Positions 4,159 through 59,616 of a stretch of DNA of 64,000 nucleotides are shown piece by piece; the stretch's first letter is position 1, and each line of letters opens with the position of its first letter. The position numbers were made by a program, and so were the translations under genes. Under the pieces are notes generated by a model, which was given only the letters and a program-made list of their open reading frames with translations, made no database searches and was not told the origin of the DNA. The stretch lies in the NCBI RefSeq assembly GCF_020736365.1, contig NZ_CP085988.1, positions 750,001 through 814,000 of the forward strand, read 5' to 3'. This stretch comes from Clostridium sp. M62/1. GTDB taxonomy: Bacteria > Bacillota > Clostridia > Lachnospirales > Lachnospiraceae.

Positions 4159-5022
4159 ATGGGGAATTTAAAGAAGCAGTCTTATTTTAATGATGTGTTA
4201 AAGCGGTTTGTAAATCACAGGCTTGCGATTACAGGAACGGTCGTGCTCTTCCTGTTAATTGTAACAGTTACGGTGCTTCCCATGATTATAGCATTGGATC
4301 CCTATACAATCGGAAGAGGGCTTCCCTATGGGACTCCTGAGAAGGGACTTCCGCTGGGGCTTGACAGTACGGGAAGGGACAACTTTGCAAGGCTGATCTA
4401 TGGGGGACGGGTATCTCTTCTGGTAGGCCTCCTCTCTACGGCGATCAGTATTGGAATCGGGGTACCCTTGGGGCTGATTGCCGCCTATTACGGGAAGATT
4501 GCAGACGCGGTGATCATGAGGATAGCAGATATTTTTATCTCTTTCCCTTCTATTATCCTCATTCTGGTGCTGGTTTCCATCATTGGCCCTTCCATGTGGT
4601 CAGTGATTGTAATTATCGGGATTATGGGGTGGCCGGAATTTGCCCGGCTGATCAGGGGAAATGTACTGGCTATCCGCCAGAAGGAGTATGTAGAATCAGC
4701 GCGGGCGGTGGGAGCTAAAGACGGGAGGATTATTACGCGCTATCTGCTTCCTAACGCGGTAGCCCCTATTATTGTGGCGGCCACCTTCCGCGTGGCAGGC
4801 GCGATTCTCCAGGAATCCAGCCTGAGCTTTCTGGGAATGGGTGTTCAGCCACCGCAGGCCTCATGGGGAAACATGCTGAATGGGGCCCAGTCTCTGACGG
4901 TCCTCACCTCCCGGCCATGGGTATGGATTCCGCCGGGGCTTCTCCTGGTTATTACCATATGCTGCGTGAATTTTATCGGAGACGGGCTGAGAGACGCACT
5001 TGATCCCAGGATGAAGGTGTAG
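4159..5022 (+). CDS. ABC transporter permease, DppC/OppC type
   Basis: A 287-residue second permease subunit. It has the OppC-type N-terminal helix (LAITGTVVLFLLIVTVTVLP), the LGLDSTGRDNFARLIYGGRVSL segment typical of DppC, five more helices and the EAA loop around EYVESARAVGAKDGRIITRYLLPN (about 175-198). It follows the DppB-type gene by 13 bp and precedes the solute-binding lipoprotein, the usual order for these importers. Confidence 0.93.
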   Translation: MGNLKKQSYFNDVLKRFVNHRLAITGTVVLFLLIVTVTVLPMIIALDPYTIGRGLPYGTPEKGLPLGLDSTGRDNFARLIYGGRVSLLVGLLSTAISIGIGVPLGLIAAYYGKIADAVIMRIADIFISFPSIILILVLVSIIGPSMWSVIVIIGIMGWPEFARLIRGNVLAIRQKEYVESARAVGAKDGRIITRYLLPNAVAPIIVAATFRVAGAILQESSLSFLGMGVQPPQASWGNMLNGAQSLTVLTSRPWVWIPPGLLLVITICCVNFIGDGLRDALDPRMKV

Positions 5023-7857: not shown

Positions 7858-8842
7858 CCCGGTTTTACTGGAGATTAGAAATTTAAAAAAATATTTTCCC
7901 ATTACAAGAGGACTGTTTAAGCATACCGTGGGATATGTAAAGGCTGTCGATGGCATAAACCTCAAAATAAAAAGAGGAGAAACTCTGGGACTGGTAGGGG
8001 AATCCGGCTGCGGAAAATCTACTCTTGGAAGGAGTATATTAAGGCTGACAGAGCCCTCAGACGGTGAAATCCTCCTGGATGGAACAGATATCAGGAAGCT
8101 GAATCAGGAGGAGCTCAGACAGTACAGGAAGAAGCTTCAGATCATTTTTCAGGATCCCTTTGCCTCTCTGAATCCCAGAATGACTGTGGGAGATATTGTG
8201 GGAGAGCCTCTGAAAATTCATGGGCTTGTAAAAAAGGACGAGATGGAGGAGCGGGTGGCAGAGCTGCTGACTCTGGTGGGACTTGACAGCCGGATCATGG
8301 GAAGGTATCCGCATCAGTTTTCAGGAGGGCAGAGGCAGAGAATCGGGATAGCCAGAGCCCTCTCGCTGAACCCGGAGCTTGTGATCTGTGATGAGCCTGT
8401 CTCTGCGCTGGATGTATCAGTTCGCTCCCAGGTACTGAATCTGATGAATGAGCTGAAGGAGAAATTGAACCTGACCTTTCTGTTTATATCTCACGATTTA
8501 AGCGTGGTCAAGCATATCAGCGACAGGGTGGCGGTCATGTATCTGGGGCAGCTGGTAGAATTGGCGGACAAGGAAGAAATCTATGAAAATCCGGCTCATC
8601 CGTATACAAAGGCTTTAATGTCAGCGATCCCCATTCCGGATCCTTTTGTGGAGAGAAAACGGATAATTCTTGCGGGAGACGTACCAAGCCCTCTGAATCC
8701 GCCGTCCGGATGCCGCTTTCATCCGCGCTGTCCCCTGGCCTGTCAGGTGTGCAGGGAGCAGGAACCAAAGCTTCGGGAATATAAGAAGGGACATTATGCT
8801 GCCTGCCACAGAGCCGGCGGGAAACAGGAGGAGAGCATATGA
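7838..8842 (+). CDS. ABC transporter ATP-binding protein, DppF/OppF type
   Basis: The second ATPase of the importer, 334 residues from the chosen ATG at 7838. AGAGGG eight bases upstream decides this start; longer readings lack a ribosome site, and the ATG at 7847 has GGGGAG only one base before it. Walker A is GESGCGKS, the signature is FSGGQRQR, and Walker B is LVICDEPV. The C-terminal extension again has Cys residues in [14 protein letters not shown]. The first 20 bases overlap the DppD-type gene, and the stop overlaps the next start as ATGA. Confidence 0.93.
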
Positions 8843-53356: not shown

Positions 53357-55063
53357 ATGAAAAGCAGGAGAAATCCTATCCTGAAGGCCTTCCTGTTCCT
53401 TCTGATCCTGGCTGTACTGGCCGGCGGAGCGTTTCTGTACTGGAAATTTGCGCCTTCCAGGGAGAGGGCAGATCTCAGGGAGGTTTATCAGGCTGAGGAG
53501 AACAGAACGATTTTATATCTGAACTATGAAAAACAGGAGGCCCAGGGAATCTATGAGAACGGGCAGACTTATCTGCCGGCAGACTGGGTGGCGGAGCATG
53601 TCAACAGCCGCTTCTACTGGGACGAGAATGAGGAGATGCTGGTCTATGCCCTCCCGGAAGAGATTCTCTATACAGACGACACTGCCGTGGGAAGCTCAGG
53701 GGAGCCGCTGATTGTGAAGCGGGAGGACGGCGTTTATCTGTCCATGGGTCTTGTGCTCAATTATACAAAGGTGAGGATACAGGCCTTCGACAGCACAGAT
53801 ATCAAGAGGGTATTTATCGAGAATGACTGGGACGGGACGCCCACTGCAGATGTAAGGGGCAGGGTGAAGGTGCGCGTGGAGGCGGACGTAAAAAGCCCTA
53901 TTCTGACAGAGTGCTACAGAGGCGACAGCGTCACTGTGCTGGAAACTACAGACGAGTGGGTGAAGATCGCCACAGCAGACGGCCATATCGGATATGTGAA
54001 AAACAGAAAGCTTAAGAATCTGCGCTCCGTGGTGCCGGAAACTGACTTTAAGGAGCCGGAATACAAAAATATTTCTCTGGATGAAAAGATCGTGCTTGCA
54101 TTTCACCAGGTGACGATACCTGAGGCCAACCAGAAGATGGGGGAGCTGCTGGAGCCGTCCAAAGGGGTCAATGTCATTGTACCTACCTGGTTTACGCTCA
54201 GCGACAACGAGGGAAGCTATGAGTCCCTGGCCAGCAGAAGCTATGTGGAAGAGGCCCATGAGAGGGGACTTCAGGTGTGGGCCATGGTTGACAATTTCAG
54301 CAAAGAGTGCAGCAGGAATGTCCAGTCCGAGATCCTTCTGTCGAAAACCTCCACCCGGAGAAAGCTTATTGAAAGCCTGATGGATGAGGCCAAAACCTAT
54401 GGCTTTGACGGCTTTAACCTGGATTTTGAGAGCATGAAGACGGAGGCTCTGCCTCACTATGTCCAGTTTATCAGGGAGCTGTCTGTGTCCTGCCGGAAGG
54501 AAGGGATTGTCCTCTCTGTTGACAACTACGTGCCTTCTGCCTACACAGCGGGCTATAACAGAAAAGAGCAGGGCATTGTGGCAGACTATGTGATCGTTAT
54601 GGGATATGACGAGCATTTTGCCGGCGGAGAGAAGGGCTCCACCGCTTCTTTAGGCTTTGTGGAGCAGGGAATCAGGGACACGCTTCAGGAGGTCCCGAAG
54701 GAAAAGGTGATCAATGCCGTGCCGTTCTACACAAGGCTGTGGCAGGAGAAGGACGGCGAGACCACCTCTTCTGCTCTGGGAATCTATAAGGCCAAGGACT
54801 GGATAGAGGAAAATCATGTGGAGCTTTCCTGGCAGGATGAAACAGGCCAGTATTACGGGGAGCTTGAGGAGTCAGACGGAACCATGGACTATCTCTGGAT
54901 GGAGGAGGAGCGTTCCCTTGGGCTTAAGATGGATCTGATCCGCCAGAATGATCTGGCAGGCGTGGCCTGCTGGAAGCTGGGGCTTGAGAGTGAGGAGATC
55001 TGGGACGTAATCCAGTGGGATCAGCCGGACGGAGAGGAAAAACAGCCGGACAGCAGCAATTAG
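53357..55063 (+). CDS. Membrane-anchored SH3b and GH18-family hydrolase
   Basis: A 568-residue protein: N-terminal signal anchor (about 8-28), a copper-amine-oxidase-like/stalk region, an SH3b domain (KVRVEADVKSPILTECYRGD to IGYVKNRKL, about 172-220), and a GH18 catalytic domain (about 245-545). The GH18 motif DxxxDxE is intact in FDGFNLDFE (about 354-362). Relatives include cortex-lytic and peptidoglycan N-acetylglucosaminidases such as YaaH/SleL and YvbX. It lies just upstream of a CwlD-like amidase gene, so a role in cell-wall or spore-cortex processing is plausible. Confidence 0.9.
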   Translation: MKSRRNPILKAFLFLLILAVLAGGAFLYWKFAPSRERADLREVYQAEENRTILYLNYEKQEAQGIYENGQTYLPADWVAEHVNSRFYWDENEEMLVYALPEEILYTDDTAVGSSGEPLIVKREDGVYLSMGLVLNYTKVRIQAFDSTDIKRVFIENDWDGTPTADVRGRVKVRVEADVKSPILTECYRGDSVTVLETTDEWVKIATADGHIGYVKNRKLKNLRSVVPETDFKEPEYKNISLDEKIVLAFHQVTIPEANQKMGELLEPSKGVNVIVPTWFTLSDNEGSYESLASRSYVEEAHERGLQVWAMVDNFSKECSRNVQSEILLSKTSTRRKLIESLMDEAKTYGFDGFNLDFESMKTEALPHYVQFIRELSVSCRKEGIVLSVDNYVPSAYTAGYNRKEQGIVADYVIVMGYDEHFAGGEKGSTASLGFVEQGIRDTLQEVPKEKVINAVPFYTRLWQEKDGETTSSALGIYKAKDWIEENHVELSWQDETGQYYGELEESDGTMDYLWMEEERSLGLKMDLIRQNDLAGVACWKLGLESEEIWDVIQWDQPDGEEKQPDSSN

Positions 55064-55182: not shown

Positions 55183-55499
55183 TTTTGTTATGGTGTTATA
55201 ATGCCGGGTGAGAAATGCCGGGTGGGAGTTTTTTAAAGCAGCCTCCCCAGGGCAGAAGGGGAAAGGCTTTGGCCCTGGTGGAATGGGACGAGGAAAACAG
55301 GGAATATACTGGGCGTAAGGAGACGATTTCCAGGTGAAGTAATTTGAAAATTGTATGCTTTCTGGACCGCCATCTGGCAGGAACGCTGGCGGCTGTGTTT
55401 TTAATTGTCTTTCTGTTTTCTGTGTTCCGCTATACCGGGCTGGACGCAGCTGGGCGCAGTGTCCATATCGGAAAGGAGAAGCCGGTGGTGGTCATTGAC

Positions 55500-55522
55500 G
55501 CAGGGCATGGCAGGGGACGGAT
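55500..55522 (+). other. attL-like junction
   Basis: Left junction: cwlD bases GCAGGGCATGG joined to element bases CAGGGGACGG. Core CATGG at 55506-55510. Confidence 0.8.
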
Positions 55523-55605
55523 GCGGCCGTACAGAGGAAAAACGGCAGGGAGAATCCGGCAAAAGTCAGGCACAGATAAGTAAAATAGTGAAGGAAGGAT
55601 ACAGA

Positions 55606-56121
55606 ATGAAAGAGAACAGAAAGGACAGGGAGCTTAGACTGAGGGAGTACAGAAGAGAGGATCTGGAGGAGATGGAGCGTCTGTTTTTTGAGACAGTGCA
55701 CACGGTAAACGCAGCTGATTACACAGAAGAGCAGCTTTGGGCCTGGGCGGACAAAGAGGTGGATCACAGGGCCTGGCACGAGTCCTTCTGCCGCCACAGG
55801 ACGGTGATTGCCGAGCTTGGAGGGCGGATTGCGGGCTTTGGAGATATGGCGCCGGACGGTTATCTGGACAGGCTGTACGTTCACAGGGAGGAGCAGGGTC
55901 AGGGAATCGGGACTGCTATCTGTGATTATCTGGAAGGGGAGCAGGCAGAGGCGGGGAGCAGGACAGAAGGAAAAGAGAAGAGATTTGTGACTCACGCCTC
56001 TGTTACGGCGAGACCATTTTTTGAAAAACGGGGATACAGGGTGGTAAAGGAGCAGCAGGTGGAGAGAAAGGGGGTTATGCTGACGAATTACATGATGGAG
56101 AAAAGGACGGGAGGAAACTAG
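55606..56121 (+). CDS. GNAT-family N-acetyltransferase (element cargo)
   Basis: A 171-residue acetyltransferase. The N-terminal REYRREDLEEMERLFFETVHTVNAADYTEEQLWAWA block is typical of GNATs of the YafP type. The acetyl-CoA motif A is LDRLYVHREEQGQGIGTAIC (R/Q-x-x-G-x-G/A as EQGQGIG, about 86-105), and the C-terminal ASVTARPFFEKRGYRVVKEQ is conserved. AAGGA precedes the ATG. It lies wholly inside the element and is probably cargo; its acceptor substrate is unknown. Confidence 0.88.
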   Translation: MKENRKDRELRLREYRREDLEEMERLFFETVHTVNAADYTEEQLWAWADKEVDHRAWHESFCRHRTVIAELGGRIAGFGDMAPDGYLDRLYVHREEQGQGIGTAICDYLEGEQAEAGSRTEGKEKRFVTHASVTARPFFEKRGYRVVKEQQVERKGVMLTNYMMEKRTGGN

Positions 56122-56210
56122 CAGATAAAGAGGAAGACGCTCTGAAACAGCCGGAATAGTGGACAGGCAGCGGCGAATAACCTGTAGCAAAAACGGACAG
56201 GAGATAAGAG

Positions 56211-56450
56211 ATGGAAGAGAAAAAAAGGGAGACAAAAAAGGGCAAACCGGATGGAATTTCCGGCAGGAGCGTGAGGAGAAAAAGCCTTGACCGGTACTCC
56301 AGAGCAGAGTTTCTGAGGAGGCTTATAGAGGCCGGAATTCTGAAGCGCGATACAGGGGAAGGTGAGAAAAAGAGCTTACAGGAAGGGCAGGCTGTCTGCA
56401 AAAGGAATCAGAGAGAGGGACAGAAGACGGGCCGGGAGGCGAGCCTGTGA
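56211..56450 (+). CDS. Small basic protein, candidate recombination directionality factor
   Basis: Seventy-nine highly charged residues (Lys/Arg/Glu-rich). A likely helical central part, SRAEFLRRLIEAGILKRDTGEG, is the only ordered-looking stretch. AGGAG is well spaced before the ATG, and its TGA overlaps the recombinase GTG (GTGA), so the two are translationally coupled. No family recognised. Serine recombinases need a small partner to excise, and this gene has the right size and place; the role is inferred only from that. Confidence 0.6.
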   Translation: MEEKKRETKKGKPDGISGRSVRRKSLDRYSRAEFLRRLIEAGILKRDTGEGEKKSLQEGQAVCKRNQREGQKTGREASL

Positions 56451-57970
56451 GCCGGCCGGGAGGCGGAAAAGCTGCAGTCTACCAGACAGCTGTGTACATC
56501 AGGCTTTCCAGGGAGGACGGCGATAAGGCAGAGAGCGACAGCGTGGGAAATCAGAGAAAGCTTCTGATGGATTTTCTTAAGTCGGAGCCGGAGCTTTCCC
56601 TGTTTTCTGAGTATGTAGATGACGGCTGGTCGGGGACCAGTTTTAAGCGGCCGGCTTTTGAGCGCATGATCAGGGATATTGAGGCCGGGCTTGTGGACTG
56701 CGTGGCGGTGAAGGATCTGTCGCGCCTGGGCAGAGACTACATTGACACGGGGCGGCTGCTGGAACGATATTTTCCTGACATGGGAGTGAGGTTTATCTCT
56801 CTTGCCGACGGGATTGACAGCAGAAAGCAGGAGTACGACATGCTGCTCCCCATCAAAAACATCTTCAATGAGCAGTATGCCAGAGATATTTCGAGAAAAA
56901 TTCACGCTGTGGTCAGAACCAAGCAGAAGGCCGGAGAGTTTATCGGAGCATTTGCCTGCTACGGCTACCGGAAGTCGCCGTCCGACAAAAACCGCCTGGT
57001 GGTGGATGAGAGGGCAGCTGAGGTGGTGAGGATGATCTTTCAGCTTTTTCTGGAGGGAAAGGGAAAAAATACCATTGCCAGGATGCTGAATGACCGGGGG
57101 ATTCCCTGCCCGTCCGAGTACAAGCGGCTGAACGGGGAAAACTACAGGAACGGAGGGCGTCTTTCGGGACAGTCCTGCTGGACGTATTCCACCGTTAATA
57201 AGATCCTCCACAGCGAGATGTATCTGGGCAATATGGTACAGGGGCGGCGTTTCCAGAGGATGCGGGGGAAGGCAAGGCAGGTGGACAGGGAAAACTGGAT
57301 TGTGGTGGAGGGAACCCATGAGGCAATCATAGACAGGCAGGTATGGGAGCAGACCAGGAAGCTTCTGAAGAGCCGTTATGCCCCGTTTCAGCCTGCAGCA
57401 GGAGAAAATGTGTTTGCCGGCTTTATCAGGTGCGGGGACTGCGGCCGGGCCATGGTCAGAAAGGGAAGAGACCGGTACCTGTGCGGAACTTATGTGCGGG
57501 CCGGAAAGGCCTACTGTTCAGGCCATGGGGTGAAAAGGCAGGAATTGGAGGAGATCGTGCTCGCAGAACTTGCCCGGGCAGTGGAGGAGGAACAGCAGAG
57601 GGGAAGCCTTGCAGAGCTGTTTGAGAGAGCAGAGAAAGGGAGAATGAAACAGGGTACAGGAGCGGTATCAGAAAAGAGAGGGGGGAGGAAAAAGGAGAGG
57701 TGGCAGACGGAGTGGCCGTGGGAACTGGCTGAAAGGGCAGAAAACGGACAGGAGGAGGCCGAAAACGAGGAAAGGGAGGAGGAATTTTGGCCTCTTGCAG
57801 GCGTTTCCGGGATTCTCGTAAGGCGGGATGACAGCTCCATGCGCAGACTCCTTGCACAGATGGCGGAGGAAATCCTGATTTTTGAGGACGGGAGTGTGGA
57901 GCTGGTCTGCCTCTACGGGGATTTGCAGGGAGGAGAAGCGCATCCGGCCCCCTCCTCATGGAGGCAATGA
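56447..57970 (+). CDS. Large serine recombinase
   Basis: A 507-residue site-specific recombinase. The resolvase domain (about 10-160) has catalytic Ser21 in AVYIRLSRED, then DLSRLGRDYIDTGRLLE with the conserved Arg residues. The recombinase domain (about 175-290) contains YGYRKSPSDKNRLVVDERAAEVVRMIF; the zinc-ribbon domain has CGDCGRAM (from Cys329) and CGTYVRAGKAYCSGHG. GTG start with GGGAGG seven bases upstream. Its last three codons and stop lie across attR: the TGA belongs to the cwlD sequence. In an excised circle the frame would run on into the left end for about 22 more codons. Confidence 0.95.
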   Translation: MSRPGGGKAAVYQTAVYIRLSREDGDKAESDSVGNQRKLLMDFLKSEPELSLFSEYVDDGWSGTSFKRPAFERMIRDIEAGLVDCVAVKDLSRLGRDYIDTGRLLERYFPDMGVRFISLADGIDSRKQEYDMLLPIKNIFNEQYARDISRKIHAVVRTKQKAGEFIGAFACYGYRKSPSDKNRLVVDERAAEVVRMIFQLFLEGKGKNTIARMLNDRGIPCPSEYKRLNGENYRNGGRLSGQSCWTYSTVNKILHSEMYLGNMVQGRRFQRMRGKARQVDRENWIVVEGTHEAIIDRQVWEQTRKLLKSRYAPFQPAAGENVFAGFIRCGDCGRAMVRKGRDRYLCGTYVRAGKAYCSGHGVKRQELEEIVLAELARAVEEEQQRGSLAELFERAEKGRMKQGTGAVSEKRGGRKKERWQTEWPWELAERAENGQEEAENEEREEEFWPLAGVSGILVRRDDSSMRRLLAQMAEEILIFEDGSVELVCLYGDLQGGEAHPAPSSWRQ

Positions 57971-57972
57971 TC
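57948..57972 (+). other. attR-like junction
   Basis: Right junction: element bases CCCCCTCCTCATGG joined to cwlD bases AGGCAATGATC. The inferred attP (CCCCCTCCT-CATGG-CAGGGG) has dyad symmetry, CCCC against GGGG around the core, as expected for serine-recombinase sites. Confidence 0.8.
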
Positions 57973-58482
57973 CCGGCAAGGTGGGGGTGGATCAGAGTCT
58001 CGAGAAGGACATTAACCTTGCCATATCAAAAAAGCTGGCTCGCTATCTTGAGCTGGCGGACGTGGAGGTGGTGATGACCCGAAGCGAGGACAAGGGGCTT
58101 TACAGTGAAACGGACAGCAGGAAAAAGTCGGCAGACATGAAGGCCAGATGCAGCCTGATTGACGAGGCAGAGCCGGATCTGGTAGTCAGCATCCATCAGA
58201 ACAGCTACCATGAGGAAAATGTCTCGGGAGGCCAGGTGTTCTACTATAACGGCTCGGTAAAGGGGAAAAAGCTGGCAGAGATTCTGCAGAAACGGTTTGA
58301 CTATGTGCTTGGAGAAAAGAATACAAGACAGGCGAAGGCAAACGACAGCTATTACCTGCTTCTTCATGTGAAAAGCCCCATTGTGATTGTGGAGTGCGGC
58401 TTCCTGAGCAATTATGAGGAGGCGGCCCTGTTAAATACAGATGAATATCAGGACCGCCTCGCGTGGACAATACATATGGGAA

Positions 58483-59616
58483 TTATGGAGTATCTGAACC
58501 GGCGTTAGAGGACGGCTCATTCAGGCAGTCATCTACCAGTGATTTCTCAATCCGGTCTGCGGCCATGGAGCCGGCTGGACGGACATAGTAGTATTCGCCT
58601 GACTCGTCCAGGCTTCCGATTTCAATGGAAAACTCCTTCAGAGAGCTCATCCCGGAACCGTCATCAGAGCCGTTTTCCGCATTTTCGGCATCTTCGGCAT
58701 TTTCATCATCAGAGGAATCTTCCTCAGAGGGCTTTGCAGCTTCTGTCTCATCCTCTGTCTCAGAGCCGGAATCGCTCTGTGAATCTTCCTCCTCGTAGGA
58801 AAACCAGATGACGGCTTGGAGGTTATCAAGACCGTACTGGGACAGCTCGCTGTCCGTGACTTTGTAATCTGCGCAGTCGAAGATGGCAAGGTTCGTGATG
58901 GCTGTGGCCAGATGGTTGGGAACGCTTACGTCCTCCACGCGGTTTTCCTCGCTTTCTTTCGAATCCCGGTACCAGATAAAATTACCTTCGTCATCCTTTC
59001 CAGTACGGATATAGTGGGAGGACTTGCCTTCTGCGTCAATCTTAAATTCCTTCACATCTGCTGTGAAAACAGAGGGAAGCTCATCTGTCTTAAGCCAGTC
59101 ATAGAGTGTGTAATCGGAGTAGTTCATCAGCACATCGCTTATGGTGTAAACATGGCTGTCTCCGCTCTTTATCGCATAGTAATCGCCGTCTTCTGTTTCA
59201 TTTCCGATGGTTATAACGGTATCCTGGCCGTCAGTGCCTGTAAAAGAAAAGGTGGCAGCAGGGGCGTCGAGCCCGTATACGGAAAGGTCCGTAACCTCGC
59301 CCAGATCCCGTTTGGCAGTTATGTCTCCCAGATCATTGGCAAGGGTCTGGACAGAGGCCTGAAGAGCGGGAAAATCGTCGTCCTCCGTATACTTCCATAT
59401 TCCATCTTTGTCCTTCTCAAAGGAGATGGAGGTGCCTGCCGAAGTATAGGAGAGAGCAGCAAGCTCAGCGCAGTCTGTAAACGGGATCACGCCCGCTGCC
59501 TCCGCCTGCTCCCGCTTCCTGTCCTCTCTTGCCGAAAAGCCGGACACAAAGGCATAGGCTGCAGCCAGGGCTGCCAGAAGAAGGCAGCCGATGGCCAGAG
59601 TATGTTTCCTTGACAT
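58483..59616 (-). CDS. DUF4340 domain protein of a Gld-type ABC system
   Basis: A 377-residue protein: N-terminal signal anchor (about 7-24), two DUF4340-type beta-rich repeats (VIPFTDCAELAALSY to about 180 and FTADVKEFKID onward), and an acidic low-complexity insertion (Ser/Asp/Glu, about 275-320). It follows the GldG-like gene by 23 bp in the same operon. DUF4340 proteins regularly accompany GldFG-type ABC transporters; the function is unknown. Its 3' end overlaps the convergent cwlD gene by 26 bp. Confidence 0.85.
   Translation of the reverse strand: MSRKHTLAIGCLLLAALAAAYAFVSGFSAREDRKREQAEAAGVIPFTDCAELAALSYTSAGTSISFEKDKDGIWKYTEDDDFPALQASVQTLANDLGDITAKRDLGEVTDLSVYGLDAPAATFSFTGTDGQDTVITIGNETEDGDYYAIKSGDSHVYTISDVLMNYSDYTLYDWLKTDELPSVFTADVKEFKIDAEGKSSHYIRTGKDDEGNFIWYRDSKESEENRVEDVSVPNHLATAITNLAIFDCADYKVTDSELSQYGLDNLQAVIWFSYEEEDSQSDSGSETEDETEAAKPSEEDSSDDENAEDAENAENGSDDGSGMSSLKEFSIEIGSLDESGEYYYVRPAGSMAADRIEKSLVDDCLNEPSSNAGSDTP

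Follow-up and report, generated by a model that had tools for sequence, protein, structure and literature searches.

A 2.45-kb serine recombinase element splits a cwlD-type amidase gene at its zinc-ligand codon and may restore it by excision

Introduction

Can a spore-cortex amidase gene that lies in two pieces still supply its enzyme? This question is raised by a cwlD-type gene of Clostridium sp. M62/1 (Lachnospiraceae), which is interrupted by a 2451-bp element encoding a large serine recombinase (LSR). The gene lies in a stretch of 64,000 nucleotides (C1:750001-814000 of the source genome, G000), hereafter called the window. A preliminary description of the window regarded the insert as a skin-like element, which either is excisable and controls the amidase or is a parasite that has silenced it. 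We consider it probable that the insert is a small autonomous intervening element driven by its LSR, which has spread horizontally, is able to excise precisely and persists through excision. A permanently silencing parasite is disfavoured.

Intervening elements have been reported in the sporulation genes sigK, spsM, spoVFB, gerE and, in addition, yabG; cwlD is not mentioned in the available text of that article (PMC10747680). The preliminary description knew of no element in cwlD, and the accessible text of the open-access PMC literature searched likewise yielded none in cwlD or pdaB. According to the excerpt available, peptide cleavage by CwlD precedes lactam formation by PdaA (PMC12444981).

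The cwlD-type gene is cut inside its zinc-ligand codon

The coordinates given by the preliminary description, with a split exactly in the zinc motif, 2451 bp and CATGG at both junctions, were verified: the gene (55344-58508) is interrupted inside the zinc-ligand His codon, to the base, and the insert is 2451 bp long from core to core (Table 1). When one CATGG and the insert were removed in silico, a single open frame of 237 aa was obtained, in which DAGHGGNDPGKVGVD is in frame. As had been claimed, this joined protein is CwlD-like and possesses all the metal and catalytic residues (H55, E70, H134 and E200, by motif). Their counterparts in C. difficile CwlD are H49, E65, H133 and E199, and His49 is a zinc ligand, as stated in the available part of PMC8496864. 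The recombinase noticed earlier was also found, with three Pfam domains. Thus, the element lies inside the coding sequence of a presumed sporulation gene and encodes a predicted site-specific recombinase. The LSR is 507 aa long in the integrated form, where its end and stop codon come from cwlD DNA, and would be 527 aa long in the excised circle. Phage genes are absent from the 2.45-kb element.

The best NCBIfam model for the joined protein is spore_cwlD (TIGR02883), with 205.5 bits. Because this score falls under the curated cut-off (221.55 bits), we call the gene cwlD-type; the values for two uninterrupted relatives were 205.5 and 198.5 bits. A second CwlD-type gene, which the preliminary description had named as a possible objection, was not found in the 3.92-Mb, two-contig genome, and the remaining three Amidase_3 genes score 84.7, 75.3 and 22.7 bits against the same model.

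Attachment sites

Large serine integrases of the phiC31 and Bxb1 type possess a palindromic attP, exchange a dinucleotide and have their attB inside a gene. The element of the window resembles them in these properties and in the domain order of its LSR. The arms of its reconstructed attP match as an inverted repeat at 14 of 22 positions, centred on the exchange site. For the 21 elements with both junctions (2451-15670 bp), the symmetry of the attP arms about the CA of the His codon averaged 14.81/22 (range 11-18), and off-centre controls gave 4.05-7.67 (16 shifted dinucleotide centres) and 4.1-8.43 (17 single-base centres). Therefore, the dinucleotide exchanged is most likely CA, with which the His codon begins, and not the whole CATGG. 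The left copy in L169, which is CAG and not CAT, also indicates CA. Judged from these alignments, the attP arms are symmetric about the dinucleotide that would be exchanged, as expected of an LSR element. Unlike phiC31- or Bxb1-type integrases, the present family has its attB in peptidoglycan amidase genes, at the zinc-ligand codon, or in PdaB-type deacetylase genes, at the codons for FDAA and WG. Because attP is a near-palindrome at the exchange site and dozens of relatives are cut at the same codon, the site appears to be more than chance.

We propose that the element's own LSR inserted it at an attB formed by the DAGHGG codons of the cwlD-type gene, and that recombination of attP with attB at the CA dinucleotide would have produced attL and attR as they now stand. 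Run backwards, the reaction would rejoin the gene precisely and free a circle of 2.45 kb. Restorability was computed in silico; excision itself presumably takes place.

A search of viral contigs for the family attP pattern, as a sign of circular forms, gave no match. One locus, L109, was considered as an excised circle because it holds an intact attP-like palindrome, and this was dropped, as its contig has no repeat or overlap that supports a circle. The palindrome (L109/L219, about 4672-4715) is complete and adjoins an LSR gene and a cut pdaB 3' part, with no sign of a circle or of a tandem copy.

Interrupted and uninterrupted forms

Comparison with related genomes, which the preliminary description had suggested as a check, revealed uninterrupted genes: cwlD is uninterrupted in six of eight genomes of the genus sample and cut in two. 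A public protein (P0001) is an uninterrupted 237-aa form with 99% identity, and its three substitutions are all in the N-part. Public proteins also include cut 3' parts of this or a sister species (P0006, P0008 and P0009) and LSRs with 98% (P0121) and 90% (P0122) identity to that of the window. Three public proteins of 173 aa begin further inside the 3' part and are not evidence by themselves. The clusters of the interrupted form are larger (66 member sequences for P0008 and 131 for P0121) than that of the uninterrupted form (seven for P0001), which suggests that the interrupted form is the commoner in this species, roughly, since clustering was at 90% identity. An assembly artefact or misjoined contig is excluded in practice by the near-identical public LSRs and cut 3' parts (P0006 and P0009), by the 3.9-Mb contig and by the dozens of further genomes in which this cut recurs.

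In G002, the second cut member of the genus, the element measures 4599 bp. Its LSR has an identity of about 38%, belongs to another clade and groups with the LSRs of G118 and G280.

Among the public LSRs, P0126 is of the window type and ends at residue 301, and P0127 is a hybrid whose C-terminal part closely resembles the window's; either recombination between LSR genes or an assembly chimaera may account for them.

A family of elements in cell-wall genes

Named genomes were scanned for related LSRs; of 131 confirmed loci, the best 80 are considered here. At 51 of the 80 loci, the 3' part of an Amidase_3 gene is cut at the His codon; 31 of these genes are CwlD-like and 20 are more distant. When the CwlD profile was run on six frames, amidase 3' parts were found downstream of the LSR at 47 loci (27 CwlD-like with E < 1e-20, 20 distant), and all 47 have an in-frame CAYGG, which reads HGG, at the start of the match. 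L056, L067, L077 and L108, all CwlD-like, were added from whole-genome matches and longer stretches. Only a 5' part is present at three loci: an amidase N-half in L065 and L111, and the motif alone in L070.

At 21 loci, one half or both halves of a PdaB-type polysaccharide deacetylase gene were found, broken at about the boundary between FDAA and WG. The break lies at query residues 83-97 in most of them; the alignments of L099 and L109 begin at 67-68, and those of L045 and L114 are weak. The deacetylase is on the strand opposite to the LSR in 11 loci with sites and on the LSR strand in L053, L087 and L109. For the joined deacetylase of L037, PdaB (TIGR02764) is the best NCBIfam model with 196.3 bits. 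Because this score and that of the G000 gene described below fall under the PdaB cut-off (237.4 bits), we use the term PdaB-type. In total, Amidase_3 or PdaB-type gene parts are present at 75 of the 80 loci, the other five being L041, L052, L082, L097 and L112. CwlD-like and PdaB-type genes, which are spore-wall genes by the best model of the members tested, account for 52 loci.

LSR loci of the genus that lie outside the clade (L006-L034, 1.5-kb flanks) gave no amidase match, and phage and plasmid collections gave short matches only. Two phage-labelled records with cwlD-type sequence were set aside: the amidase is uninterrupted in both (in one it ends at the record edge), and no LSR matched. 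L057 was considered uninterrupted from its profile match (27-230) and was rejected as such, since its attR shows that it is cut.

Separately, a cwlD-type gene in G112 (L203; N part at 1273, C part at 7866) is split by an insert of about 6.6 kb without an LSR relative; this insert is possibly another non-autonomous member of the family.

Constraint on the interrupted amidase

Insertion into spore genes would be cheap, because growing cells do not need them. We propose that a horizontally spreading family uses Amidase_3 genes (cwlD-type and others) and pdaB-type deacetylase genes as landing sites, and that the element persists by excising, probably in the mother cell, at a frequency that still supplies the spore with its enzyme.

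Hosts were surveyed in 39 genomes (40 loci). The best CwlD-type match was a cut 3' part in 30 hosts, apparently uninterrupted in seven and ambiguous in two (G316 and G330); G314, G326 and G336 were counted among the 30 although their alignments span the junction. None of the 30 cut hosts has an uninterrupted match above 41% identity, and in G327, G329, G332 and G336 the cut amidase itself is just 36-39% identical to the query. In six of the seven hosts with an apparently uninterrupted copy (G337-G343) the LSR is in a deacetylase gene, and in G337 (L111) it is at an amidase N-half.

The 3' part is open in 45 of 46 assessable copies (L059 is truncated by the locus end). L171 and L176 share an element, four genes of which have dS values of 0.17-0.27; the amidase 3' part has a dS of 0.179 and a dN of 0.022, and the left flank is 96.7% identical. 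Between L168 and L171, dS is 0.77 for the LSR, 1.19-1.36 for three other element genes and 1.65 for the amidase (dN 0.044). The dN/dS ratio between these three interrupted orthologues with related elements is 0.03-0.12, a value based on three genomes and with the larger dS values near saturation. Thus, in L171 and L176, and probably in L168, the element seems to have diverged along with its host gene, the gene staying under constraint. This joint divergence suggests at least occasional restoration of the cut gene, unless there were repeated gains and losses of elements. Because of the open frames and the low dN/dS, permanent silencing is unlikely. Of the two roles offered by the preliminary description, the silencing parasite therefore loses ground, and the excisable element is consistent with the precise restoration in silico.

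Several observations weigh against this reading. The joined amidase misses the spore_cwlD cut-off, resemblance to CwlD is weak in 20 of the 51 amidase targets, and both of two distant targets examined carry a SPOR domain and may have roles beyond the spore; the distant targets slightly lower our confidence in the preferred reading. The 3' part of L043 has a premature stop, and the dN/dS base is small and partly saturated. Horizontal movement is evident from L182/L183 (LSR dS 0.06, amidase dS 0.98) and from L101 (Hominisplanchenecus) and L103 (Erysipelotrichaceae), which are assigned to different orders and have an LSR dS of 0.084. A recent arrival of elements could therefore also leave frames open. 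Promoters were scanned with consensus sequences that we took to be those of sigE, sigG, sigK and sigA. Upstream of cwlD in the window, no such site was found within two mismatches, and the scan as a whole gave no clear enrichment and no support for sporulation timing. In L081/L086, LSR dS is 0.30 and the amidases are saturated. Upstream of 21 uninterrupted orthologues, sigE sites were found in three (shuffles: mean 0.9, maximum 3) and sigA sites in three (mean 0.85, maximum 2), with sigG and sigK sites at shuffle level; upstream of 20 LSR genes nothing exceeded the range of 20 shuffles.

These points fit an alternative, in which plain mobile elements take the conserved codons of catalytic motifs as attB and excise rarely and without developmental control, and the gene owes its survival to recent integration and a mostly uninterrupted population. 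Strains with the element would then make poorly germinating spores. Horizontal spread of the LSRs, diverse cargo, SPOR-domain and distantly related targets and the lack of a sporulation promoter in the window all agree with this, and indeed we regard the elements as mobile first on these grounds. The apparently low frequency also agrees: at least four further cut copies were confirmed among the matches listed (191 of 299 genomes, family sample). However, the joint divergence of element and constrained amidase, the larger public clusters of the interrupted form, roughly measured, and the 52 spore-wall loci are not readily explained in this way, and we hold the alternative to be possible but clearly the weaker account. 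The preferred reading remains an intervening element that excises. As for the timing alone, we lean slightly towards excision during sporulation; such developmental use is what we infer from target choice, constraint and known precedents.

A second split gene, pdaB

In the same genome, the PdaB-type gene directly upstream of spo0A (L225) is cut between FDAA and WG by a 1700-bp insert. Its only large gene encodes a 499-aa xanthine permease-like protein, which scores 363.3 bits against TIGR03173 (cut-off 414.15 missed) and lies above the cut-off of the NCS2 superfamily model. Joining the two halves restored the frame, and PdaB is the best model for the joined protein (223.3 bits, cut-off missed). 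The arms of the insert are symmetric about TG, the complement of CA, at 13 of 24 positions, compared with 6-7 at three neighbouring centres. Of 44 arm positions, 29 agree with the attP of the window element (23 in the best of 500 shuffles), or 31/46 when the centre is included (shifted registers, 8-18/46); the agreement with other family members is as good or better, for example 31/44 with L171. Because the other LSR matches in G000 are short fragments with 47-48% identity or longer ones with at most 43%, and the three placed in the tree are outside the clade, the LSR of the window is the likeliest enzyme for both elements.

We tentatively suggest, and think it rather doubtful, that this LSR acts in trans on the pdaB element, so that one sporulation-timed event reassembles both enzymes. 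If so, the family would amount to a developmental system, widespread and including domesticated non-autonomous members, that reassembles spore-wall genes; this two-gene, one-recombinase hypothesis is directly testable. Against a shared enzyme, no uninterrupted pdaB of the species is present among the 120 best proteins listed; that the pdaB insert has no recombinase gene weighs against the preferred reading of the cwlD element. The same two points, together with the presence of two split spore-wall genes in one genome, would fit a host that is losing sporulation, in which cwlD and pdaB are both permanently broken. This is improbable, since the Spo0A, SigE, SigG and SigK frames are open, both genes have open halves that can be rejoined in frame, and P0001 is read as coming from a near-identical strain with an uninterrupted CwlD. 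In the genome, sigK is one open frame, that is, without a skin insertion.

The public cut form of pdaB is P0343, with 37 members. G006 and G007 have uninterrupted pdaB-type copies with 72-73% identity, and the other five genus members have no match above 35%. Among 32 other hosts with a cut cwlD, the PdaB-type match is apparently uninterrupted in 11, absent at 1e-30 in 14, partial or distant in four, and cut in three (G306, G324 and G334). G320, one of the 11, has a second PdaB-type copy, which is cut.

The cuts in G334 and G324 adjoin other recombinase-like genes: in G334 (L254) the gene is cut near residue 115, and in G324 (L252/L253) it is cut between AG and HDLGNHS by about 45 kb. With these additional cut points, the pdaB-type gene seems to be an insertion hot spot. 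G000 as a whole has 24 LSR matches, some of them fragments.

Comparison with known intervening elements

According to the available text of PMC10747680, skin (sigK), SPbeta (spsM), vfbin (spoVFB) and yin (yabG) are site-specific elements that interrupt a sporulation gene and can restore it, and they are prophages or prophage-like. The element of the window shares the former properties and is, in contrast, 2.45 kb long and without phage genes. Therefore, the label skin-like holds for an intervening element in a sporulation gene, but the closer relative is gin, which interrupts gerE in Bacillus cereus ATCC10987, is not of phage type and was shown to excise during sporulation (PMC5595907, in the part available). 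Like gin, the present element has a site-specific recombinase and a short common end sequence, lies inside a sporulation gene and permits precise reconstitution. The two differ in target (gerE, cwlD-type gene), host (Bacillus, Lachnospiraceae) and machinery (three recombinase genes and a 9-bp consensus in gin, one LSR here), and the element of the window is known from sequence alone. A further difference from skin and the other prophage-like elements is the second split gene of the genome, the insert of which lacks a recombinase and has att arms that match.

Gene-intervening LSR elements are thus a known kind; as far as we have seen, the target genes, the host group and the possible two-gene system are new. 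Reassembled sporulation genes have been known from a handful of elements, and here there are dozens, mostly in genomes labelled Lachnospiraceae, which converge on the same catalytic codons of cell-wall enzymes. If excision holds, split spore-wall genes look as if they are pieced together again at spore formation. The family also supplies natural LSR/att pairs with known sites.

Other features of the locus

The features are listed in Table 1. The 79-aa open reading frame (ORF) has no Pfam match, and a comparison with ORFs from the 20 other elements gave no relative at 1e-3. In other genomes, the SH3-GH18 neighbour upstream has relatives that adjoin both intact and cut copies, and the downstream DUF4340 gene gave no match beside either.

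Table 1. Positions of the split genes, attachment sites and neighbouring features (window coordinates unless C1 is given)
Feature	Position	Strand	Evidence
SH3 and GH18 protein, upstream neighbour of cwlD	53357..55063	+	Pfam domains
cwlD-type 5' part, TTG start, hydrophobic N-terminal stretch, ...VVVIDAG to exchange point	55344..55505	+	N-part recognised by CwlD profile
Left core CATGG (attL); CA at 55506-55507 is the most likely exchange dinucleotide	55506..55510	+	
P' arm of attP within the element, nearly mirroring the P arm	55508..55529	+	
GNAT-family acetyltransferase, cargo, 171 aa	55606..56121	+	PF13673, 1.5e-20
79-aa ORF overlapping LSR start; candidate directionality factor by position only	56211..56450	+	
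LSR, 507 aa; final codons and stop in cwlD DNA	56447..57970	+	Resolvase, Recombinase and zinc-ribbon domains (Pfam)
P arm of attP inside element	57935..57956	+	
Right core CATGG (attR)	57957..57961	+	
cwlD-type 3' part, HGGNDPGKVG... to stop at 58506-58508	57957..58508	+	PF01520, 4e-43
Cores of pdaB insert	C1:3532854 and C1:3531154		1700 bp apart

The cargo of the family is diverse and includes van-like enzymes, CotH/VTC proteins, toxin-antitoxin pairs and transporters. The cwlD-type elements of L168, L171 and L176 (from Lachnospiraceae metagenome-assembled genomes) encode a VanX-like dipeptidase, a D-Ala-type ligase and a 2-hydroxyacid dehydrogenase (Pfam, L171 copies), as well as response-regulator-like ORFs noted by eye. 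The cwlD elements of L170 and L172 encode CotH kinase-type and VTC-domain proteins (Pfam on L170; L172 by clustering). In L039, L043, L051, L171 and L191, a conserved ORF of 143-176 aa adjoins the LSR; the L191 copy belongs to no Pfam family. The 2.7-kb element of L191 consists mostly of the LSR and this ORF, which is a candidate directionality factor or cargo.

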